Below, one piece after another: positions 50,017-64,000 of a stretch of DNA of 64,000 bases. Under the pieces are notes generated by a model that worked only from the letters and a program-made list of their open reading frames with translations, was not told the DNA's origin and did not search any database. Each line of letters starts with the position of its first letter. Position 1 is the first letter of the stretch. The DNA is from Rhizobiales bacterium Y(2018). Its GTDB lineage: Bacteria; Pseudomonadota; Alphaproteobacteria; Rhizobiales; Aestuariivirgaceae. The stretch is taken from the NCBI GenBank assembly GCA_005502925.1, contig SCPD01000003.1:186001-250000 (forward strand), given 5' to 3'. A program made the translations under genes and the position numbers.

Positions 50017-51066
50017 TCAGGCTGCCTTGAGCATGCCCTTCTTGAGCGGTTCCTCGGTGATGACGCGGTCTTCGTCGAGCGAGCGGAATGGCTTGAGACC
50101 GAGCTTCTGCAATTCGCCGTGATAGGCGCGCACCGCCTCTTCGGGACTGATCGCGCCGTCGGTGACTTTGCGCATGAAGGTGAGAAGCGTCAGGGGCGCC
50201 TCGGCCTGGTTGATCTTGCGGCCGAACAGCGCCACGCGGGCGCCGTAGCGTTCCGCCTGGTGCAGAAGCTCGAAGGTGTCGCGATTGGTGCCGCCGCCGC
50301 CGCCCAGAATGCCGATGACGAGGCTCGGATCATAGGCCGCCAGCTCCTCCAGCGCCTTGGGACCGTTATAGACGATCTTCAGGAATTGCGGACGGTCGGC
50401 CTTCATGACGCCGGCGAGGCAGCGCAGGAGGCTGTCATTGATAAATTCGCCGAGATGCTCGCGCTCCATATTGTGCGGCGTATTCGGATTGAACACTTCG
50501 AGGAAATATTTGAAGCCGTTGAGGGCGGCCTCCGCGCGGAAATCGCGGAAGGCTTCCATGGTGCGCAGATCGGCCTCGAGATCGTTCATCATGGTGATGG
50601 AGTAGAGGCCGAGATCGGTGCCGTAGATCTTCTTGGCGCCCGGTGCTTTCAATGGGGCCGCCGCGTTGTACATCACACGCGGCAGGCTCGCGGTGCGGAA
50701 GGGACGCGAAGCGAGCTTCGGATAGACGCCATGGCGCACCAGGCCCCAGCAATCCGTCGTGTCATTGGCACGGATCACCGGCTTGACCTTGCTCTTCTTG
50801 AACACGCCGCGCTCATGCAGCAATTCGAGATTGGAGGCCGAAACCAGCATGACGTCGACGATGCCCTGCTTCACCACCGCCGCGATGTCGTCGAGATATT
50901 CGGCGCGGGTCTTGCCGCGCAGCCGGGTGCCGTCGGGCGCGCGCTTCGGCGCAGCGCCGAGCACGCCGGCGCCCATATCGCCATCCTTGGCGTCGGCGAT
51001 GATGAAATCCGACCGCTTGTATTTGCCGGCCCGGATCCGTGCCAGCTTCTCGTCCAATTTGGTCAT
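50017..51066 (-). CDS. Class I (DhnA/LsrF-type) aldolase
   Basis: A 349-residue TIM-barrel protein of the DeoC/FbaB/LsrF group. IADAKDGDMGAG near the N-terminus, VDVMLVSASNLELL, YFLEVFNPNTPHNM and the Schiff-base lysine Lys230 in PQFLKIVYNG lead to a glycine-rich phosphate-binding loop (IGILGGGGGTNRD). It should cleave or form a phosphorylated ketose or keto compound. It is longer than DhnA (about 260-290) and its exact substrate is unknown. AGGAGA lies before the ATG at 51066. It is divergent from the ADP-dependent-type kinase, so the two may act in sequence: second phosphorylation, then aldol cleavage. Confidence 0.75.
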   Translation of the reverse strand: MTKLDEKLARIRAGKYKRSDFIIADAKDGDMGAGVLGAAPKRAPDGTRLRGKTRAEYLDDIAAVVKQGIVDVMLVSASNLELLHERGVFKKSKVKPVIRANDTTDCWGLVRHGVYPKLASRPFRTASLPRVMYNAAAPLKAPGAKKIYGTDLGLYSITMMNDLEADLRTMEAFRDFRAEAALNGFKYFLEVFNPNTPHNMEREHLGEFINDSLLRCLAGVMKADRPQFLKIVYNGPKALEELAAYDPSLVIGILGGGGGTNRDTFELLHQAERYGARVALFGRKINQAEAPLTLLTFMRKVTDGAISPEEAVRAYHGELQKLGLKPFRSLDEDRVITEEPLKKGMLKAA

Positions 51067-53644: not shown

Positions 53645-56600
53645 CTAATTGAGGACAATATTGGGCGTGGCGGGCGGCGTAAAGTTGATGGCGTCCCCCG
53701 CTATGACGTTGCCGGTGAATGTTCCGGGCATGTTGTTGAAGTTCACCGACGGGAAGAACCGCACGGTGGACTTGATCTGATTGCCGAGCACGGCCGCGGC
53801 GCGCCCGACCAGCCACACGGTCGCCGCCCGTCTCGGCTCCGCATTCGGCGAGGCAAAGTGCCAGCAATGATTATTGCTGAAAGCCACGCGCTCGAAGCGG
53901 ACGATGGTGCGGTCGTTGATCCGCATTTCGCGCAACTCGACCAAGGCGGAGCGGCCGGTGCCGATGAAGCGGTTGCCCAGGATATGGGCAGCAAAGCCGA
54001 GCGCGATGATATCGGCGTTGACCCAGATCTCCAGGGCGCCGCGCATGATGAGCGCGCGGTCCTCCCGCGTGACGCTGCGCGCGCCGGCATTGCCATAGGT
54101 GACCTGATTGCCCTCGACACGCGCCTCGAGCACCAGATCGCCCATGATGCCGTAATCGACCTTCGACCGCGCCTGCGCGGTGCCGTCGCTGCCCGAGTTG
54201 AACACCTCATTCTCCGAGATGTTGGCTTCACCCACGATGGAATAGCAGCCGATCGAGAAAGCGAGATCGGACATCTGGCTGGCGCAGCGCGCCAGCCGGT
54301 TCCCGATGATGTCGAGCCGCTCGGCGATCGAATAGGCATAAACGCCCCAGAAATCGAGCGGATCCATCCGGTTGCCGGCGACCTGCGGCGCCGTCTCGCC
54401 GATCAGCGTGATGCCGAACCCGCCGGCGCGGCAATCATTGCCCGACAGGCGATTGCGCCTGCCGTTGCTCAGGACGATCGCCGCATTGGCGCCACCGATC
54501 CGGTTGCCCGATATCTCCGCCCCGTCGATACGCGTGGCAGTGAGACCAAAACCCAGCCGGCCGGCCGCCAGAGCGTCGATCACATTGCCATTGATGACGA
54601 GACGCGAGGCGTCGATGCAGGCGATGCCATGCTGCAGGCCGGCCAGTGTATTGTTGGCGACGATGCCGGCGAGGACAGGTTTGGGCGCATCCGTCCCGAC
54701 GCCGCCGATCTGCACGGCGACCGGCCCCTGGTTGTTCCGCTCCTTCAGCCGCGCGATCACGGTGTTCCCGCTGACCTCGCAGAACGAGCCGGCGATACGG
54801 ATGCCGATATAGGTCGGATCGGCATATTGGATGCGGTTGCCGGCGATGCGGCAACCATCGGCTGCGACATCGATCGCCGCCGAGCGGAAATTCGCCGGAC
54901 CTTCCGGATTGGAGGGACACAAGACGAAATTATCGGTCACCAAAGAGAGATCCGCCAAGGAATCCGCCTCATCGAAGGGACGGTCATTGACGATGATGCC
55001 GAAGGAGGCGCCCGACACCCAGTTGCGGGTAATGCGGCAGGCGAAGGCCGACTCCATATAGGCGATGCCGAAGACCGCGATGTCGCGGCCGGAATTCTCG
55101 ACGATATTCCCATCGGCCTCGAAGACTTCGCAGCGCTCGCGCACCAACATACCGCCGCCCAGATTGGCGAAACGCGACGAGAGGACGCTCAGATGATCGC
55201 TGGTCTGCGCGACCAGTCCGATGAAGGTACGGTTTTCCTTGGCCGTGACGCCGCAATGGGAAATGCGCACGCGCGACGCCCTGATAACGGTGATGACGCC
55301 GGCCCCGTCGGCGCCGGCGGAGCCTGCTTCGAAGTCGATGCCGAGGACATCGACGCCCTCGATGCGCTCGCGCCCGCCGCCGATGATGAGAACGGGTCCA
55401 TCGGCCGCCGAACGAACGGTCGTTCCCGGGCTTTCCGCCTTGAGCACGATGCTGCCCCGCGTGATGCGCAAGGGGGCACGGGCGACATGATCTCCGGTCT
55501 TGAGGCAGACGCAACCGCCCTGCGGCGGCAGAGCGTCGATCCCGGCCTGGATGTCTTCGCCCGGCCGGACGATGATCGTGCAGCAGCAATCGCCCGCCCC
55601 CTGCTGCGGCGGTGGCGGCCGGCAGTCGCTGATGACGGGCGCCGCTGTCCCGAGCCCGCTGATCGCGGCGACCTGCACATAATGATGGCGGATGCCGCGC
55701 GGCGGCGCGTTGACGAGCTCCTCGATCGTCGCCGTCGCGGTGCGCGCCCAGAACACCCAGTAATCGCCGGTGCGGAAAGAACCACCAGCGGGATCGGCCG
55801 AGAAGTCGATCTCGATGCCGTCTTCGATGGCGATGGGTCCGGCTGCGGTCAGGATCAGACCGTCGGCATCGATCGTGTTACTGCTGGCGGTCTGATCCCA
55901 GCGCTGCACTCTCGTATGACGGCCGGCGATCTCCGCCGTGGTGGCGCCAAAGGGCCGTGTCGCGGGCCGCGGCAAGGCCCGGTCGAGCACGATCCGGCGA
56001 TTGGTCTCGTCGATATCGACGATGAGCGCCATATCGCCGCTTTCGCCGGCGAGCTCGCGGTGATCATCGGTCACGCTCACCCAATCGCCCGCGCGGAAGC
56101 GCAGGAAGGCGTCGCGGCCGATGCGGTTGACGGTGAGTGTCGTCTGCGTGCCGCTGACCGCGATCTCGCGCACTGCCGAGACGATCGAGCCATTGTCGCG
56201 CGACCATTTGAACCGCGCCGTGCCGAGTGCCCCGCCTTGCTGTATCTCCACGCGATAAAGCCGGTTCTCAAGCCCACGATAACCGGAGGCCGGCGGCAGA
56301 ATGCAGGGATCATCGGGCGCCGGTGGTGCTATCGCCCGGCTGGTCAGGCGTCCGGCGGAAGGCGGATCACCCACCGGCATGCCGCAGGCGGCGGCCCGTC
56401 TCGGATCGACACGCAACTGCCAGACGGTTTGCCGGCGCGTGGTCGTATCGGCGCCGCCGAGCGCCGGATCGAGCAGTCCGCCGTCCTCGATATAGGTGAC
56501 CTCGCGCTCCCACACATCGAGATAGACGACGGCGTCGCCCGAGGCCGGCAGCGTCAAAGGCGGGTGGAAGGGCTGGTTACGATAAGTGGCGCCGTCCTCG

Positions 56601-56884
56601 GCGAAGCACTCGATTTGGATACCGTCGACATAGAGCCGGCCGGGGCCGATCGAAAGATCGGCAGGCGGCCCCGGGATAAACCCAATCTTGAAGGCATCCG
56701 GGCTCACTTCATAGGGAACGCCGATCGGTCCCAGCGTGTCGAGAGCGGTGGTGCGCAGGCGGCGACGCAATATGTCGATCTCTTCATTCCAGTCGGAATC
56801 GATCTGGACACGGCCCTGCTGCATGAGCACGCCTGAGTAGCGCTTGCGGGGCTCGAAAGTGAATCTCGTATAATCACCACTCAT
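53645..56884 (-). CDS. DUF6519-type protein with right-handed beta-helix
   Basis: A 1079-residue protein. The N-terminal part (about 1-470) begins FEPRKRYSGVLMQQGRVQIDSDWNEE, the pattern of DUF6519 proteins encoded with phage-tail-like systems. ADLSIGPGRLYVDGIQIEC and VVYLDVWEREVTYIEDGGL follow. From about 480 a Cys-rich hinge (CCCTIIVRPGEDIQAGIDALPPQGG) starts a NosD-like parallel beta-helix with many short NRI/GNxV rungs to about 1000. This looks like a surface-displayed spike or receptor-binding component, possibly acting on glycans. AAAGGAG precedes the ATG at 56884. It lies 20 bases after the gpI-like gene. Confidence 0.78.
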   Translation of the reverse strand: MSGDYTRFTFEPRKRYSGVLMQQGRVQIDSDWNEEIDILRRRLRTTALDTLGPIGVPYEVSPDAFKIGFIPGPPADLSIGPGRLYVDGIQIECFAEDGATYRNQPFHPPLTLPASGDAVVYLDVWEREVTYIEDGGLLDPALGGADTTTRRQTVWQLRVDPRRAAACGMPVGDPPSAGRLTSRAIAPPAPDDPCILPPASGYRGLENRLYRVEIQQGGALGTARFKWSRDNGSIVSAVREIAVSGTQTTLTVNRIGRDAFLRFRAGDWVSVTDDHRELAGESGDMALIVDIDETNRRIVLDRALPRPATRPFGATTAEIAGRHTRVQRWDQTASSNTIDADGLILTAAGPIAIEDGIEIDFSADPAGGSFRTGDYWVFWARTATATIEELVNAPPRGIRHHYVQVAAISGLGTAAPVISDCRPPPPQQGAGDCCCTIIVRPGEDIQAGIDALPPQGGCVCLKTGDHVARAPLRITRGSIVLKAESPGTTVRSAADGPVLIIGGGRERIEGVDVLGIDFEAGSAGADGAGVITVIRASRVRISHCGVTAKENRTFIGLVAQTSDHLSVLSSRFANLGGGMLVRERCEVFEADGNIVENSGRDIAVFGIAYMESAFACRITRNWVSGASFGIIVNDRPFDEADSLADLSLVTDNFVLCPSNPEGPANFRSAAIDVAADGCRIAGNRIQYADPTYIGIRIAGSFCEVSGNTVIARLKERNNQGPVAVQIGGVGTDAPKPVLAGIVANNTLAGLQHGIACIDASRLVINGNVIDALAAGRLGFGLTATRIDGAEISGNRIGGANAAIVLSNGRRNRLSGNDCRAGGFGITLIGETAPQVAGNRMDPLDFWGVYAYSIAERLDIIGNRLARCASQMSDLAFSIGCYSIVGEANISENEVFNSGSDGTAQARSKVDYGIMGDLVLEARVEGNQVTYGNAGARSVTREDRALIMRGALEIWVNADIIALGFAAHILGNRFIGTGRSALVELREMRINDRTIVRFERVAFSNNHCWHFASPNAEPRRAATVWLVGRAAAVLGNQIKSTVRFFPSVNFNNMPGTFTGNVIAGDAINFTPPATPNIVLN

Positions 56885-56904: not shown

Positions 56905-59160
56905 TCAAGTCATGTAAATGAGGCCGTAATCGAGGCCGAAGGGCAGATATTCCTTGAGCCGCAGATGCAGATTGGCTTCGCGCTGCGGCTGCTTGAGATG
57001 GCAATAGGCGCCCATTTCCGATCCGTCGGCCGCGCCCTTGGCGATCTCTTCCGGCCCCTTGAGCGACAGTTGCAGATAGGCGGGCTGGCCATAGGCTTCG
57101 GCCGTGTATTCCGGCTTCACGCGCAGCCGCACCCGATCGCGCAGGGTCTGCTTCTCGGCCGCCGTCAGCGGCCCTTGCCGCGCCTCGGCTTCCGCGATCG
57201 CCTTGCTTGTGGCGAGATCGGGCTGGCAGCGATAACGGCGGGGCAGCCGCGATGCGGGCGGCGCATAGGAGAAGCGCACGCAGCCCTTCTGCACGCGCGC
57301 CGTGTCGACAAGACCATCGAAAATCGTCTCGGTGGCGAGCGTGACCTCGCGCAGCAGGCAGCGGCCGCGGATCGTCACACGTTCGCAGCGCAGGGCCGGG
57401 CCTGGCCGGTTCGCCGCCTCGACGCCGGTAATCGCATCCTGGCCGGCGCCGTCGACGATGCTGTCGAGGATGGTGAGGCCCTCGGCATGGGCCGGCAGCC
57501 GGATCGCGCCCACGATCGAAAAGGCGATCTCGACCGCGAGCTCCTGATTGGCAAGGCCCCCGCTCGCCAGAGTGGCGACGGCCTTGAGGCTCGGCTCGGT
57601 CTGGACCGGTGGCGGCGGTTCCGTCTCGGCGATCGAGCCGCCCGGCACCACCGTCGAATGAAGGACGCGGAGCCGATGCAACGAGCCCTCGATGGTGACA
57701 CGCCCCTCGATCAACAGGCCGCTCAGAGTCACGGCGAAGTCGGGGCGATTGCCGGAGATCGCCAATGGACCACGCAGACGCAGATGCGGACGCATGCCGT
57801 CGGCGGCTTCGAAGGCGAGCGTATTGCCGGTGGCGCTGGTGACATCGACGGCAATTGTCTCATCATAGGTGCGGTTGTCGCGGATGCTGATGATCGCGTT
57901 GCGCCGGCCATCGCTTGCCCAGTCCAATAGCGCTGCGGCAATGGTCGGGTGACCGGTGGCGCCGCCGACTGCGATCACCCTTACATCGGCAGCGAAGTTG
58001 CGGCGGATGAGCCAGGCGCGGCGGCGATAAGGCCCACCGCCCAGATCAGCCGGGAAGCCATAGTGATAGATGACCTCGACCTTGCTGGCCGGGAGCAGCG
58101 CCGGGCCTAACGCCAAGCGCCCGCGCGCGACATCGATGGCGATCCGGTCGGTGGAGGGCTGCGACCAGGTCGAGAGATTGCGGCAAATGACTTGCCATAG
58201 CGGAATCTCGACCCCGTCGACATAAACGGTAAGGCTCGGGACATCGGACGCCGGTCCATAAAAATCGGCAAAGCCGGAATAGAAACGCGCCGGACGGATC
58301 GGTTGCGGCACGTGAAGCTCGGTGGCGAGACCGGTCTCGTCGCCTTCGCGCCTCGCCCGGCTGAAGAGCGGCGCCGACTGACCGAGCGGGCTGAAGAAAT
58401 AACGGAAGTCGCCAACGCCTGCGACGCGACGCGCTTCGCTCCGCTCCAGCGCATAGGCTTGGAGCCGCCAGAGATGGAAGCCGATATTGCGGATATTGTA
58501 CCAGCCTTCGTCCTGCGCCACCGGGCGCACATCGACCGTGTGCGAGATCTCATCGAAAGCGCCGCCAAGACGGTCGAGACGCTCGACCGAGCGCATATCG
58601 GGGGTGCGCAAGGCATGCGGGCGCAGATGATTGCGCAGATATTGCGTCCAGCCAAGCAACTCGAAATATTCGACCGCATGGGCGGGCCAGCCGGTGACGT
58701 CGCGGGCCAGCTCCTCGAGCATCGGCAGCGTACCCTTGCGGCGGCGGTAATAGATCGTCTTGGCGACATCGGCGCGCGAGCGCAGCGCCACGAAGGGCCG
58801 CAAGCCGCGGCCCGGCAGACTGCGTTCGGCGCGGCCATTGAGCGCCTTGATGCGGCGGTCCTCCGCCCCTTCGAGATCACGGAAGAGCTCGACCGCCGTG
58901 TCGCCGTCCTTGACGCGGCTTTCATCGAAGAGCGGCGTGGTGCCCACCAAGTCGCCAATATAAGCGACGGCCCAAGGCTCGCAGGTTTCGATGAAGGCAT
59001 TTTCCTGAAGCTGCCTGATATCCTCTTCGATGACATCCGCCTGGCCGTCGACGATACCGAGAAGGGCGCGCAGCGCTTCACCGCTCTCCTGGTCACGCGC
59101 GCGGATGAAGGCCGGCAGGAGATCATAGAGGCGATCACGTTCGGCGTTGGAGAAAGCCAT
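56905..59160 (-). CDS. Phage tail protein, gpI-like N-terminus with long beta-rich extension
   Basis: A 751-residue protein. The first 180 residues match P2 gpI-type tail proteins of contractile systems: NAERDRLYDLLPAFIRARDQESGEALRALLGIVDGQADVIEEDI, FIETCEPWAVAYIGDLVG and a LPMLEELARDVTGWPAHAVEYFE block. Such proteins join the baseplate to fibres. The remaining 550 residues are beta-strand rich, with GPLAISGNRPDFAVTLSGLLIEG resembling beta-helix rungs, and are unassigned. Its ATG shares one base with the stop of the baseplate gene. Confidence 0.8.
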   Translation of the reverse strand: MAFSNAERDRLYDLLPAFIRARDQESGEALRALLGIVDGQADVIEEDIRQLQENAFIETCEPWAVAYIGDLVGTTPLFDESRVKDGDTAVELFRDLEGAEDRRIKALNGRAERSLPGRGLRPFVALRSRADVAKTIYYRRRKGTLPMLEELARDVTGWPAHAVEYFELLGWTQYLRNHLRPHALRTPDMRSVERLDRLGGAFDEISHTVDVRPVAQDEGWYNIRNIGFHLWRLQAYALERSEARRVAGVGDFRYFFSPLGQSAPLFSRARREGDETGLATELHVPQPIRPARFYSGFADFYGPASDVPSLTVYVDGVEIPLWQVICRNLSTWSQPSTDRIAIDVARGRLALGPALLPASKVEVIYHYGFPADLGGGPYRRRAWLIRRNFAADVRVIAVGGATGHPTIAAALLDWASDGRRNAIISIRDNRTYDETIAVDVTSATGNTLAFEAADGMRPHLRLRGPLAISGNRPDFAVTLSGLLIEGRVTIEGSLHRLRVLHSTVVPGGSIAETEPPPPVQTEPSLKAVATLASGGLANQELAVEIAFSIVGAIRLPAHAEGLTILDSIVDGAGQDAITGVEAANRPGPALRCERVTIRGRCLLREVTLATETIFDGLVDTARVQKGCVRFSYAPPASRLPRRYRCQPDLATSKAIAEAEARQGPLTAAEKQTLRDRVRLRVKPEYTAEAYGQPAYLQLSLKGPEEIAKGAADGSEMGAYCHLKQPQREANLHLRLKEYLPFGLDYGLIYMT

Positions 59161-62100
59161 CAGAGCACCTCCACGGCGGTGAGATTGAGATCGGTCGCCG
59201 GATCCTCGATGAAGGCCTGCTCGGCGGCCAGGACCGGCGGCGGCGCTCCGGTGAAGCCGGCGCGGGCATAACGGTCGATCAATGCCAGAGGCGGCGTCGG
59301 CCGCGCCGGAAAGATGCGGATATGCGGCTGGCGCGGCGCCAGATCGACGGCGCGCGAGGCCTGCTCGACGGGGCTCAGCTCTTCATAATGCTTGAGCTGG
59401 AAGACATCGAGATCGACGGCGGCAACACCTTTGGCGCCCTGCAGGACCGTATAGATCTGGCTCGCGAAAACCGCCTCGCCGAGCGGCAGCGCGTCGAAGG
59501 CGAAGAATGCGAGGAGCCGCGTGCGGGCATCTTCGAGCATCGCGTCCGCTTCGAAGGCGGGATCGCGCAGCAGTCTCGCTTTGACCACGATCGGCACACG
59601 CACGAAATTGGCCAGGAACAGCGGCCGGTTCGGATCGCGCACCCTGTCGAGCGCACCGCGCAGGCGCATCAGCGAGGCCGCGGATAGAACATCGCCTTGC
59701 GGCCCCGCCACGGTGACGTGAAGAGCCCGCTCCGTCTCGCTCCAGACCCAAGTGACCGAAGCCCGCGCCGCGAGGCCGGACGCGGTGGTGATCGCCTCGA
59801 AATCGGCGAGCGACACGGCGCGGCCAAAGGTGCGGACCGAATTGGGTGCTCCGTCACGCGCTTCATCGCGGGTCTCGGGATCAGCCCCTCCATCCGCCGG
59901 CAGCGGGTTGCTGACGGATCTGAAGCCGACCGGGCGCTCGAGCGGGATCGACAGCTGCTCGCGCTTCATCCGGCCCTGCAGGCCGAGACCGGTCCGGTAG
60001 GTCGCCATGATGTTCATGGCGCCCGACGGCAGTCGTGCGCCGGTCGCGCCATCGCCGAACATGATCTGCGTCTCGCCGGCGTCGTTCTGGCGCGCCGTAT
60101 AGACACGTTCGGTGGATTTGCGGGAGAAGAAACTCGGCGCCTCGTTCCACAACTCGCCATTCACCCGAACTTCCAGGGCCGCGGCGCCCTCGAGTGACGT
60201 CGCCGATTGGAGATAGGTCAAACCGGGTCGCGACAGCTTGAATGTCTGAAAACCCTTGGCCCCTTCGCCGTGACCCAGAGCCTCCACCGGCTGAGTCTCG
60301 CCATGGCTTGCATTCGCGACATTGCCGAGGAGCTTGACGTCGCTGAGTGCAATTTCGGGACCCGGTGTGAAATCGACGAACAGGTGATCATCGGGCCCGC
60401 CCGGTATCGCTGCAAAGGGTTTCACCGCGATGACCGTCACCGGATCGAGCCCCGCCGATGAGCGCAACAAAACGCGCCGCCCCTTGGCGATATTGCCTAC
60501 CGTCCGAGCGCCGGGATGCATGCGCAAAGCAAGCCGGCCCTGCTTGATCCTGTCGGGGTAGTCGTAACCGCGGAAAACGATGTCGTCGGCGGCGATGCGA
60601 TAGATGGCAGTCTTGCGCCGGTCGGGAATGGCGCCGATGCCGTCACCATGGCTTGTCCATGGCGTCCAGCTGCTGCCGATCAGCGCGCGCGATGTGATGC
60701 CGCCATCGCCGCCGCGCGCATAGACATGAAGGCCGAGGGCGTCGCGCCCGGCCACCGGCGCGGAGGTGAGACGGCCGGCGAGAGAGATCCATTCGCTCCA
60801 GGTCTCACCGTTACGCGTGATCATCCACAAGGCACCGTCCTTACCGCGCGCGAAGATATCGAGCCGGTCGGGTGCGCCGGCCACAAGTGCCAGATCGCCG
60901 GTGAGCTGGCCGCCGAGGGAGCGCCAATCGCTCCAGACCGTGCCGTTCCATTTGCGATGAATGACGCCGCCTGCATCATCGAGGGCGGCAACATCGATCC
61001 GGCCGGCGCCGGCCGAAGCCACTGCCGGTCCACCGGCAAGCTCGCCCTTCAGCGATGTCCAATCCGACCAGGTGGCGCCGTCGCGCAGGCGATACCAGAG
61101 CGCGCGATCGGTGCTGCGAACAAAAACCGCAACCGCGCCAGGCTTGTGCGATACAGGCGCCGGCGCCGAGGTGAGGATGCCGTTAAGTCCCATCCAGCTT
61201 CCTGGCGTGCCGGAAGTGACGTCGATCGCCCAAAGACCTAAGTCGGTTCCCCGCACGAAGACGAGGACAGTGCCTCCCAAAACGGCCACCGGCCGCGGCT
61301 CGGAGGTCAGAATGCCGCCATGGTCGACCCAGCCGCTCCAGACGCCCGAAACAGATCGGCGCTGGCGCAGGCGGAGATTGCTATCGCGGACAAAGATGTC
61401 CTGACCCGCCGCCCCCACCGCGACAGCGTGGACGTCGGACGACGCGTCCATGAGATCGCGATAGACCCATCGCCGTGTGACCGCCGGCGGGTCGAGCGCC
61501 AGAACAGCGCCAGTGCCCGAGCGCGCATAGACACCGTGAATCCCGGCCGCAGGTGCCGCGATACTCGGCCCCCCGCGCAAAGTCTGGCGCAACTCGACCT
61601 GCGTTACCGTGTCGGTCAATTGATCGATCGTACCCAGATGCGCGGGCCGGTCTTCCGATCTCACGATCGCCGCGGTGCGCAGGCGCGGCACCGCATCGGG
61701 ACCGGCATCGATGAGCAGTTGCGCGCCGGTCGCAATGTCGGTGTAGCGCGTGTCGAGCGGATAAAGCACGGTCTCGGCACCAAGCGAGGCATCGACCGTC
61801 TGCAGCTCCCATTTGGGCCAGGTGGTCGGCGTCGGCGCCGGCACATAGACATTCACCTTTTCCGGCGCCGTATGCCCAAAGAACCGCAAACGGCCATCGA
61901 GCTTAGTGAGACGCGCGACATCGCCGGACGATTGCGGCATAGCGACCGCCGGTTCGAACGCAATCACCTCGCCGTCGGCGCGTGGCTTCAATGCCGTCAG
62001 GGTTTTCTCTTCGATCCTGCCGAGGCCGAAGAGAACGAGCTTCGCCCCTGGCGCCAGCTTCTCCGGACGGGCCACGATCGGACCACCAGTCGATCCGAGT

Positions 62101-62642
62101 GCGAAGCCATTGAAAGGAATGGGCGGTGCGAAGGCGGCCGCCTCATTGAGATCGCCATGCGCGGCGATCGCCTCGATCGTCTCGAAGATCTGGGCCTTCT
62201 CGTCCTGGCCGGGGACGCTCATCACCTTGAAGCCCTTGCGGATGCGCGTCTCGGCGCCGGCATCCAGCGCGAAGCTCAGCAATGTCTCGGCGGCCAGGCC
62301 CGGACGCAGACGATAGCCAAGCAAACGCGTCAGGCGCAGAAGCGAATCCCGTTCACGCGCCGTGCGCAGATAGAGCTCATTGGCGATGCGCTCATTGTAG
62401 AAGCTCAAGACATCCGCGGCCGCGGCGAAAAGCTCGAGGATGGTTATGGCATAGTCATCGCTCTCGCGCGTGGTGAGATGGGCGAGCGCCGCCTCTTGCG
62501 AGATCGACAGCAGCATCGCCTCGCGGAAACTGGCGCAAGTGCCGACCCGATAGGCGATCTCGGAAAGTCCAGGACGGTTGAAGATAGCGATGGGTGTGGC
62601 GGTCACATCGCCGGAGCAGCCACAGAAACCGTCATGAGCCAT
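59160..62642 (-). CDS. Baseplate-assembly (gpJ-like) protein with embedded PLL-like beta-propeller
   Basis: A 1160-residue protein of the putative baseplate assembly group. The N-terminus has AALAHLTTRESDDYAITILELFAAAADVLSFYNERIANE and LGYRLRPGLAAETLLSFALD, and the C-terminus has FGDGATGARLPSGAMNIMATYRTG, all typical. Between about 365 and 680 lie seven repeats of about 45 residues with WSxW and (L/I)(G/T)SxP cores, described separately. The protein probably sits in the baseplate, with the propeller facing outward. The ATG at 62642 is followed by a CGCSGD cysteine motif. It is 2 bases after the other baseplate gene. Confidence 0.85.
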   Translation of the reverse strand: MAHDGFCGCSGDVTATPIAIFNRPGLSEIAYRVGTCASFREAMLLSISQEAALAHLTTRESDDYAITILELFAAAADVLSFYNERIANELYLRTARERDSLLRLTRLLGYRLRPGLAAETLLSFALDAGAETRIRKGFKVMSVPGQDEKAQIFETIEAIAAHGDLNEAAAFAPPIPFNGFALGSTGGPIVARPEKLAPGAKLVLFGLGRIEEKTLTALKPRADGEVIAFEPAVAMPQSSGDVARLTKLDGRLRFFGHTAPEKVNVYVPAPTPTTWPKWELQTVDASLGAETVLYPLDTRYTDIATGAQLLIDAGPDAVPRLRTAAIVRSEDRPAHLGTIDQLTDTVTQVELRQTLRGGPSIAAPAAGIHGVYARSGTGAVLALDPPAVTRRWVYRDLMDASSDVHAVAVGAAGQDIFVRDSNLRLRQRRSVSGVWSGWVDHGGILTSEPRPVAVLGGTVLVFVRGTDLGLWAIDVTSGTPGSWMGLNGILTSAPAPVSHKPGAVAVFVRSTDRALWYRLRDGATWSDWTSLKGELAGGPAVASAGAGRIDVAALDDAGGVIHRKWNGTVWSDWRSLGGQLTGDLALVAGAPDRLDIFARGKDGALWMITRNGETWSEWISLAGRLTSAPVAGRDALGLHVYARGGDGGITSRALIGSSWTPWTSHGDGIGAIPDRRKTAIYRIAADDIVFRGYDYPDRIKQGRLALRMHPGARTVGNIAKGRRVLLRSSAGLDPVTVIAVKPFAAIPGGPDDHLFVDFTPGPEIALSDVKLLGNVANASHGETQPVEALGHGEGAKGFQTFKLSRPGLTYLQSATSLEGAAALEVRVNGELWNEAPSFFSRKSTERVYTARQNDAGETQIMFGDGATGARLPSGAMNIMATYRTGLGLQGRMKREQLSIPLERPVGFRSVSNPLPADGGADPETRDEARDGAPNSVRTFGRAVSLADFEAITTASGLAARASVTWVWSETERALHVTVAGPQGDVLSAASLMRLRGALDRVRDPNRPLFLANFVRVPIVVKARLLRDPAFEADAMLEDARTRLLAFFAFDALPLGEAVFASQIYTVLQGAKGVAAVDLDVFQLKHYEELSPVEQASRAVDLAPRQPHIRIFPARPTPPLALIDRYARAGFTGAPPPVLAAEQAFIEDPATDLNLTAVEVL
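60603..61550 (-). other. Seven-repeat PLL-like beta-propeller region within the baseplate protein
   Basis: Seven units of about 45 residues (about 365-410, 411-457, 458-503, 504-547, 548-593, 594-637, 638-680). The best-conserved units share FVR.TD..LW, then WSDW.SL.G.LT..P. This matches the pattern of DUF346/PLL-type seven-bladed propellers, some of which bind fucose or galactose. Confidence 0.7.
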
Positions 62643-62644
62643 GA

Positions 62645-64000
62645 TCAGAGTCCTCCGACGGCGGTTAGGCGCAGCACGCCGTTCTCGGCGAGATTGCGAT
62701 CATTGTCGAGGCGGGGAATCTCGAAGGGCGTCATGATGATGGCGCCTTTGTCGAGCTCACCACGCGAGGGATCCCAATAACGTTTGAAGAGCGTCACCTC
62801 GGCCGAATTGACGCCTTCGACCGCGACGACGGCGGCATAAAGCTGCGACAGATAGACGGCGGCGCCGAAGCCGAAGCGTAAGGGGAAGAAGAAGCCGGTC
62901 GTACCGTCGCCATAGGCCCGGTTGGACAGAACACGCCCGACCTCGGCCAGCACGTCGCCGCGAAAATGCCCATCACCGACACAGAGGCGGATATCGATCT
63001 CGAGCGGCACATAGATGGCGGCGCGGATATCGAGATCATAGCCGGCAAGCTTGAACCGCGTGAGAAACGCCTTCATGCGCTGGGCGAAGAGCGGCTGCAA
63101 TTCGACTCCGCCCCCCGGCAGACGCTTTAGATTGGCAGGATCGGCCGGATGGATCGCGATGAAAACGGTGTGCCACGAGCCGGTCCAGCGGAAGCTCGCT
63201 TTGGCGGCTGCGACATCCGGATGGCGCAGCGCCATCTCCTCCCAGTCGCGCTCGGTGACGGCGCGGAACTGCACCGCGCGGAAAGCCTCGGGCGCGATCT
63301 GGCGGACCTGCTCGATCGTCTCCGGGATCTCACCGCCCGTGGCGGGCAGCGGCTGCCACACGCGGGTGACCGGCGGAATGACGACGATTCCCGGATCGAC
63401 CAGATGCACCAGCGTCCCCCAACCGGCATTTCCGGAACGCCCGTTGCCGATCCTATAGCGGGCGACGACACGTTCGGCGTCATAGGGACGCCGGCCATAC
63501 TGATCGTCACCGAAACGCAGAGACGTGAGGCCCAGATTGTCGGTCTCCACTACGAAATGCTGGTCGAATGACTGGCTGTCGAGCAGGTTCGGCACCGGCA
63601 GCCACTTTTCGGCGGCGGGCTCGCTCGGGAAGAAAATGTCGAGCCCGATGGCGGGATCCGGCAGATGGCTCAGCGGTGCATCCGGAAGGGTGAGATCCGG
63701 AATGGGCCAGCGGCCGGCGCCCATGCCGGGAAGTCGGATTTCGTTTTTCAGGCTGTCGCGCGTGATGCTGCGCCCATGATCGACGGCGGCGATGTTGCCG
63801 CGCGCCACGGTGACCGGCGCGATCTCCAGATGATCGACGGTCTCGGCCGAGATCCGCGGCGCAAAGGCCAGCATTTCACCCGCGGCGAAGGCAACGCGCA
63901 GCAAGGGCAAGGCCGGATCGGCGGGATTGGTGCGGGGCGTCAGCAGGCCACCGGTCAAAACCGACGTGAAAGCGGCGTCTTCGGTCGCCTGGACGTGATC
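62645..64000 (-). CDS. Baseplate J-like protein, C-terminal part (cut by window edge)
   Basis: The frame is open to base 64000 and shows about 451 residues without a convincing start. Blocks such as NLGLTSLRFGDDQYGRRPYDAERVVARYRIG, VTERDWEEMALRHPDVAAAKASFRWTGSW and YDLDIRAAIYVPLEIDIRLCV match baseplate J-like proteins, with the usual EVDIRL-type strand and a C-terminal GVNSAEVTLFKRY segment. It would build the baseplate wedge together with the following gpJ-like protein. More tail genes (sheath, tube, spike, AAA ATPase) would be expected to the right of the window. Confidence 0.85.
   Translation of the reverse strand, partial: DHVQATEDAAFTSVLTGGLLTPRTNPADPALPLLRVAFAAGEMLAFAPRISAETVDHLEIAPVTVARGNIAAVDHGRSITRDSLKNEIRLPGMGAGRWPIPDLTLPDAPLSHLPDPAIGLDIFFPSEPAAEKWLPVPNLLDSQSFDQHFVVETDNLGLTSLRFGDDQYGRRPYDAERVVARYRIGNGRSGNAGWGTLVHLVDPGIVVIPPVTRVWQPLPATGGEIPETIEQVRQIAPEAFRAVQFRAVTERDWEEMALRHPDVAAAKASFRWTGSWHTVFIAIHPADPANLKRLPGGGVELQPLFAQRMKAFLTRFKLAGYDLDIRAAIYVPLEIDIRLCVGDGHFRGDVLAEVGRVLSNRAYGDGTTGFFFPLRFGFGAAVYLSQLYAAVVAVEGVNSAEVTLFKRYWDPSRGELDKGAIIMTPFEIPRLDNDRNLAENGVLRLTAVGGL

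Follow-up and report, generated by a model that had tools for sequence, protein, structure and literature searches.

A PLL-Type Propeller Inserted in an eCIS Baseplate Protein of Alphaproteobacteria, with a Putative Role in Glycan Binding

Introduction

What would a lectin-like ring do inside a baseplate? Target recognition by extracellular contractile injection systems (eCIS) is usually ascribed to fibers, and the lectin fold considered here is predicted to lie inside the firing baseplate itself. It is encoded in a stretch of 64,000 nucleotides (the window) on contig C31 of a 7.1-Mb genome of the genus Aestuariivirga. A sequence-only reading of the window had described seven repeats within a gpJ-like baseplate protein, likened them to PLL/DUF346 propellers, and suggested that they form a sugar-binding ring and might be a mobile module. 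The questions raised by the locus are what these repeats are, how they came to be in a baseplate protein, and whether they are likely to bind a target, the producing cell, or no sugar at all.

The eCIS operon

The operon that contains the repeats runs from a sheath gene, located outside the window, to a DUF6519/beta-helix gene at positions 53645 to 56884. The encoded proteins are, in order, the sheath (PF17482), the inner tube (Phage_T4_gp19, 7.2e-44), a T4_baseplate protein, a Pvc16_N protein, an AAA ATPase, and two eCIS_core proteins, followed by a CIS_tube protein (27.9 bits, just over the cutoff of 27), a 380-amino-acid protein with a VgrG-related match below the cutoff, Phage_base_V, gp25, two TIGR02243 proteins, a protein of 751 amino acids, and the DUF6519 protein. 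Judged by Pfam, the genes for the sheath, inner tube, gp25, spike V, AAA+ ATPase, Pvc16-type, and eCIS_core proteins are all present, and the locus is on these matches an eCIS; a phage origin was rejected, as the neighboring genes are eCIS genes. The two eCIS_core proteins (L004:732-2417, 561 amino acids, and L004:2424-5957, 1177 amino acids) are encoded in the same operon outside the window and are likely cargo or cargo associated; no further domain was recognized in either by Pfam or NCBIfam.

Two divergent Baseplate_J wedge proteins are encoded side by side. The first TIGR02243 protein (859 amino acids; 2.8e-65 for the whole protein) lies directly upstream of the second, on the minus strand from 62645 to the window edge at 64000 and onward to 65224; it has no propeller, and it matches the second at 1.8e-7. 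Downstream of the pair, between the baseplate and fiber genes, the 751-amino-acid protein (56905 to 59160, minus strand) matched no family in Pfam or NCBIfam, and its homologs adjoin the baseplate gene in all seven other insert-bearing genomes described below and in the insert-free relative G165.

The last gene of the operon (53645 to 56884, minus strand) encodes a candidate tail fiber with a DUF6519 domain (PF20129, 1.2e-58) and a right-handed beta-helix (NosD, 4.7e-12; Beta_helix, 5.5e-12). DUF6519 is listed as eBAP5, a fiber domain, in a 2026 catalogue of eCIS receptor-binding proteins (PMC12923769), and that work defines the eBAP5 fiber type by a DUF6519 protein encoded after the baseplate genes, the arrangement found here. 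Homologs were present in G165 and in six of the seven other insert-bearing genomes, the contig of the seventh (G651) ending before that place. By its family matches, then, the operon encodes a fiber candidate of its own, separate from the propeller.

An insert in the second TIGR02243 protein

The second TIGR02243 protein (59160 to 62642, minus strand; 1160 amino acids) matches the NCBIfam family "putative baseplate assembly protein" through the flanks of the insert, with 4.3e-62 and 210.6 bits against a curated cutoff of 155.8, and matches the baseplate chain 9gtp_1K at 6.1e-7. Its N-terminal baseplate part (residues 1 to 356; 61575 to 62642) is 41 to 45% identical to that of G165. The C-terminal Baseplate_J part (residues 673 to 1160; 59160 to 60626), which aligns profile positions 342 to 656 of TIGR02243 with residues 776 to 1079, is 49 to 50% identical. 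Between them, in frame, lie residues of approximately 357 to 672 (60627 to 61574, minus strand), which are missing in G165 and other homologs.

This insert is made up of seven repeats, each about 45 residues long. At a lag of 45, 73 residues were self-identical; in 500 shuffles, the count peaked at 41 over lags of 20 to 79. The repeats could be aligned as blades in all eight insert-bearing homologs: blade 1 (residues 367 to 412; 61407 to 61544), blade 2 (413 to 456; 61275 to 61406), blade 3 (457 to 501; 61140 to 61274), blade 4 (502 to 546; 61005 to 61139), blade 5 (547 to 591; 60870 to 61004), blade 6 (592 to 636; 60735 to 60869), and blade 7 (637 to 672; 60627 to 60734), all on the minus strand. 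The first blade is degenerate in several of these proteins, including those of Aestuariivirga, and recognizable in G542 and G651. The seven repeats inside a baseplate protein that had been read from the sequence were thus confirmed; the span given for them, 60603 to 61550 (residues 365 to 680), is displaced by about 8 residues from the one that the homologs indicate.

Predicted fold of the insert

Searches with the window baseplate protein point to Photorhabdus lectins. The best PDB sequence match by phmmer was PHL (5mxe, 8.8e-47), with PLL3, PLL2, and others also matched, and PLL/PHL lectins made up eight of the nine PDB sequences listed up to an E value of 1. Pfam and NCBIfam, searched to the same E value, did not match the 1160-residue protein to any propeller or lectin family. 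A separate PLL-like protein of 368 amino acids (L057) matched all eight insert-bearing homologs (E values of 2.2e-20 to 5.1e-72), compared with none of three insert-free homologs and none of 1,000 shuffled propellers, up to an E value of 100.

Structure prediction gave a consistent picture. An AlphaFold2 model of the insert alone, built on two sequences, had a pLDDT of 67.7 and a pTM of 0.74, with values below 50 for blade 1 (the first 46 residues). The best 22 Foldseek matches of this model were all PLL-family lectins (E values of 2.6e-16 to 2.5e-14). In VIA-align, the model aligned with PLL4 over its range 1 to 313 (299 aligned residues; Z, 32.1; rmsd, 2.8); Z scores of the PLL-family entries were 30.6 to 32.1, followed by the lectins BP39L (27.7) and CV39L (24.8), and the others among the best 50 did not exceed 23.7. 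Full-length prediction of the window protein together with L009, L010, and L058 had a mean pLDDT of 29 and cannot serve to orient the propeller on the baseplate.

The PLL-type fold predicted for the insert is well supported by sequence comparison and modeling alike, and the proposal of a PLL-type propeller embedded in a Baseplate_J/TIGR02243 protein is upheld by the PHL match, the TIGR02243 flanks, and the alignment to PLL4. A closed seven-bladed ring, which had been left to structure prediction to decide, is very likely from the alignment of the model to PLL4, the low-scoring blade 1 being the one part of the ring to which the model does not extend this support.

Homologs with and without the insert

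Full-length insert-bearing homologs were found in at least eight genomes, every one from the same class as the window, Alphaproteobacteria; the larger genome searches scored the best two or three candidate places per genome, and their insert-bearing counts are lower bounds. Three of the five genomes of the genus carried the insert (G000, G001, and G004). In the family, nine of 69 genomes had any match and none beyond these three was insert bearing, the other six showing weak propeller-only or baseplate-only matches. Wider searches added G377 and G381 from the order (any match in 17 of 397 genomes), G542 and G651 from the class (12 of 385; both are of one family, of which they are the sole sampled members), and G1099, again of the window's class, from a sample of the phylum (12 of 398). 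No further insert-bearing genome was found in the family of G1099 (any match in 22 of 248, G1099 included), the family of G377 (4 of 28), or the genera of G377 and G381 (3 of 14 and 4 of 13), and a second class of the phylum likewise gave none (any match in 14 of 210).

We compared 40 homologs at the insertion site, a chosen rather than random sample that includes some near copies. The site spans 323 to 334 residues in the eight insert-bearing proteins, 7 to 141 in 18 others, and 20 to 101 in 14 more. In none of the 32 insert-free homologs is the site long enough for a propeller, the longest stretches being those of G992 (141) and L150 (101). The insert is therefore not an ordinary part of every member of the family, in agreement with what the sequence-only reading had supposed, and its interpretation as a normal part of the baseplate protein is ruled out. 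Additions of 35 to 90 residues at other loops (around G165 residues 199 to 298) occur in L103, L106, L104, L058, L146, and L147, indicating that the middle of this protein tolerates insertions.

The closest insert-free homolog, that of G165, has 29 residues at the site. Both states occur in one genus, with the insert in G377 and without it in G165 and G336, which makes the role of the baseplate in recognition directly testable. The G165 locus has a homolog for each of 14 compared operon proteins, both eCIS_core queries matching a single open reading frame, and the genes from CIS_tube to DUF6519 stand in the same order and on the same strand as in the window operon. In G165 (L046 and L047), the half from sheath to eCIS_core adjoins on the other strand, unlike in the insert-bearing genomes for which both halves were seen.

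Other collections were searched as well. Scanning of named bacterial genomes by exact short peptide matches gave two loci, L009, which is G001 again, and L010 (Methanosaeta), whose listed range spans more than one gene and whose true homolog (L010:7692-10343) lacks the insert. A search of viral contigs with A1 gave two loci, L058, without the insert, and L059, a weak partial match; searches of the same contigs with the window propeller and the L057 protein gave no match. Among 50,697 phage records and 72,556 plasmids, 15 and 41, respectively, were matched, in no case over 80% of the query. At the sensitivity of these searches, the embedded propeller was not found in any phage or plasmid of the collections.

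Origin of the insert

In a tree of the baseplate part alone, the eight insert-bearing proteins formed one group with support of 89/87, which is under the starred level of the tree program, and G165 was the sister at 100/99. The tree holds 20 of the 26 site-compared rows (Ensifer, G992, G905, G595, G295, and G476 were left out), with long branches flagged for G162, G1134, G427, and Strep and odd composition for Nostoc, Strep, Methano, and vir058. One change of label is enough to explain presence and absence, and 90% of 200 bootstrap trees agree. A single acquisition of the propeller, followed by joint inheritance with the operon, is favored by these sequence comparisons rather than proven; an earlier gain, before G165 branched off, with later loss from G165 is a conceivable alternative at the cost of two changes.

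Over the 28 pairs of insert-bearing proteins, which are not independent, propeller and baseplate identities were correlated (r = 0.92), and propeller identity (27.5 to 94.4%, against 42.5 to 95.1% for the baseplate) was below that of both flanks in every pair. These observations fit one acquisition, joint inheritance, and faster change of the ring. Of the suggestion that the propeller is a mobile module, what stands is its presence and absence within one genus (G377 versus G165 and G336); the tree favors a single acquisition over repeated mobility.

Separate PLL-like proteins of other genomes, such as L057, are a possible source of the propeller. The G1185 protein is probably of this kind. An open reading frame at L133:8686-11889, which includes a masked stretch, has highly regular PLL-like repeats in its C-terminal part; as none of the other genes on that 20-kb stretch matched the eCIS operon proteins, it is probably a separate PLL-like protein.

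Candidate sugar sites

In PHL, fucose is bound by Thr194, Trp199, Trp214, and backbone atoms, at sites on the face that bears the termini, and galactose is bound by Arg186, Glu188, Trp202, and others (PMC5584973). Among blades 2 to 7, which were scored, blades 3 and 4 carry the complete fucose triad (T/W/W) in the three Aestuariivirga proteins, the window protein among them, and no blade does so in the other five. The Trp pair corresponding to W199/W214 is kept in one to three blades of each of the eight proteins; in blade 6 of the window protein it is retained with Lys at the Thr position. Neither the Thr nor the first Trp is present in blade 1 of any of the eight. The galactose-type set of Arg, Glu/Asp, and Trp, for which only these three positions were scored, occurs in no blade from 2 to 7 of any of the eight.

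Sugar binding by the propeller is plausible on these residues, and since site residues differ between lineages, the ligands probably differ as well. With the fucose triad lost in five of the eight proteins and the galactose-type set in all eight, some members may have lost sugar binding and may bind nothing. Moreover, the termini join the baseplate here, and the face with the candidate sites may be partly buried, given the position of the PHL fucose sites on the termini face.

Comparison with known systems

The insert shares with the Photorhabdus lectins PLL to PLL5 and PHL (5mxe, 6t96, 8q82, and others) seven W-motif blades and a strong match in sequence and predicted fold. Those lectins stand alone and have many sites, whereas the window ring lies inside a baseplate protein and retains the residues of two canonical fucose-type sites and of no galactose-type ones.

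Published eCIS structures describe Baseplate_J proteins of this kind as wedges round the spike. One of them, Alg11 of AlgoCIS (Algoriphagus machipongonensis), has a "spike cage" (domain IV, residues 278 to 643) that resembles two carbohydrate-binding modules, tilts outward on contraction, and has been proposed to aid attachment (PMC8894135). Alg11 and the window protein are alike in being Baseplate_J-type wedge proteins that carry a sizeable extra domain; they differ in that this domain comprises two CBM-like modules in Alg11 and a predicted seven-bladed propeller, not a CBM, in the window protein. The sequence similarity of Alg11 to the window family was not significant (7aeb_G, E value of 0.65), and a profile of the middle region of the window protein, made to place the Alg11 insertion site, had no PDB match up to an E value of 10.

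As an inserted domain with carbohydrate-binding modules was already known from Alg11, a protein of the same kind, the propeller is a variant rather than a new kind, and to call an embedded sugar-binding part unusual was an overstatement. What appears to be new is another fold of the sugar-binding type, the PLL propeller, in the baseplate of a DUF6519-type eCIS, sugar binding here being putative. This points to a counterpart of the AlgoCIS sugar-binding extension in a different eCIS lineage, built on a different fold.

The Streptomyces coelicolor CIS baseplate chain 9gtp_1K (652 residues) shares a homologous Baseplate_J core with the window protein (6.1e-7 with the single sequence and 3e-21 with a profile), the propeller part being unmatched; it is probably Cis11, since the entry has 12 chains. 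Cis11 of S. coelicolor is described as peripheral and surface exposed, and the authors observed no fiber-like component of the particle (PMC12237407). The DUF6519 eCIS loci of G165 and of a Streptomyces europaeiscabiei plasmid (NZ_CP109155) follow the gene order of the window from spike/gp25 through both TIGR02243 genes to DUF6519, with 29 and 36 residues, respectively, at the insertion site, versus 323 to 334 in the insert-bearing proteins. Beta-propeller lectin domains are also reported for eBAP3 tail fibers (PMC12923769), on fibers, whereas the window propeller lies inside a wedge protein; the words DUF346 and PLL are absent from the main text of that paper. Among the open-licence papers listed, judged by title and abstract opening, none describes a propeller of the PLL type within a baseplate protein of an eCIS or a phage.

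Proposed role of the propeller

The reading toward which we lean, by a modest preponderance, is that, in a DUF6519-type eCIS, a loop of the Baseplate_J-type wedge protein received an in-frame PLL-type propeller, most likely once, and that the ring serves as an accessory adhesin that binds glycans multivalently and with low affinity. Several alphaproteobacteria would since have passed the insert on together with the operon. By analogy to Cis11 and Alg11 in the solved systems, the wedge protein is expected in at least six copies around the spike, and a ring of propellers should accordingly be exposed close to the tip of the particle. This ring could provide multivalent, weak docking to glycans at the baseplate, once the DUF6519 fiber has bound or in addition to it, and before contraction; with a separate fiber gene present, it would not be needed for the first contact. 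As the least conserved part in 28 of 28 pairs, the propeller behaves as expected of a surface-recognition part; a relaxed, nonessential domain would show the same.

A purely structural propeller, which would stabilize the wedge, pack against a neighbor, or enclose the spike like a cage and would have no sugar ligand, seems to us improbable, but it deserves serious consideration. Most lectin-site residues vary across the eight-member set, TIGR02243 homologs have additions at other loops, and there are precedents in Anabaena, where the cage domain of Cis11 has no assigned function and contacts with Cis12 seem to be stabilized by a further extra domain (PMC8894136). A packed interface, however, would not be expected to be the least conserved of the three parts of the protein; G165, moreover, has a matching eCIS locus without the propeller, and aromatic pairs have been retained in some blades.

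Binding to glycans of the producer itself, such as polysaccharide or matrix, so that particles are retained or arrayed there rather than brought to a target, is quite unlikely in our estimation. The thylakoid CIS is kept inside its own cell by baseplate and fiber extensions (PMC8894136), and PLL-type proteins bind cell-surface sugars (PMC5584973). The protein has no hydrophobic anchor (the top 19-residue hydropathy is 1.57) and the operon has a fiber-type gene, both of which count against retention at the producer, though they are compatible with it all the same.

Still more doubtful is a reading in which the propellers of the loaded particle hold the wedge iris closed, and multivalent engagement of sugars tilts them outward and licenses contraction. 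Such a glycan-sensing latch would place target sensing inside the baseplate, with or instead of the fiber. That the propeller match is an artefact of Trp/Gly-rich repeats is scarcely credible: HMMER noted a composition bias of 9 and 24 bits on two stretches of the best match, but the shuffle control (0 of 1,000) rejects composition as the cause, seven blades align in eight genomes, and a model built on two sequences recovers the PLL fold.

Other open reading frames near the operon

An open frame of 992 amino acids (53858 to 56836, plus strand) lies antisense to the DUF6519 fiber gene and is probably a by-product of high GC content and codon bias. Downstream of the eCIS operon, an open reading frame of 349 amino acids (50017 to 51066, minus strand) had a subthreshold match (E value of 0.2) to an RnlA toxin DNA-binding domain.
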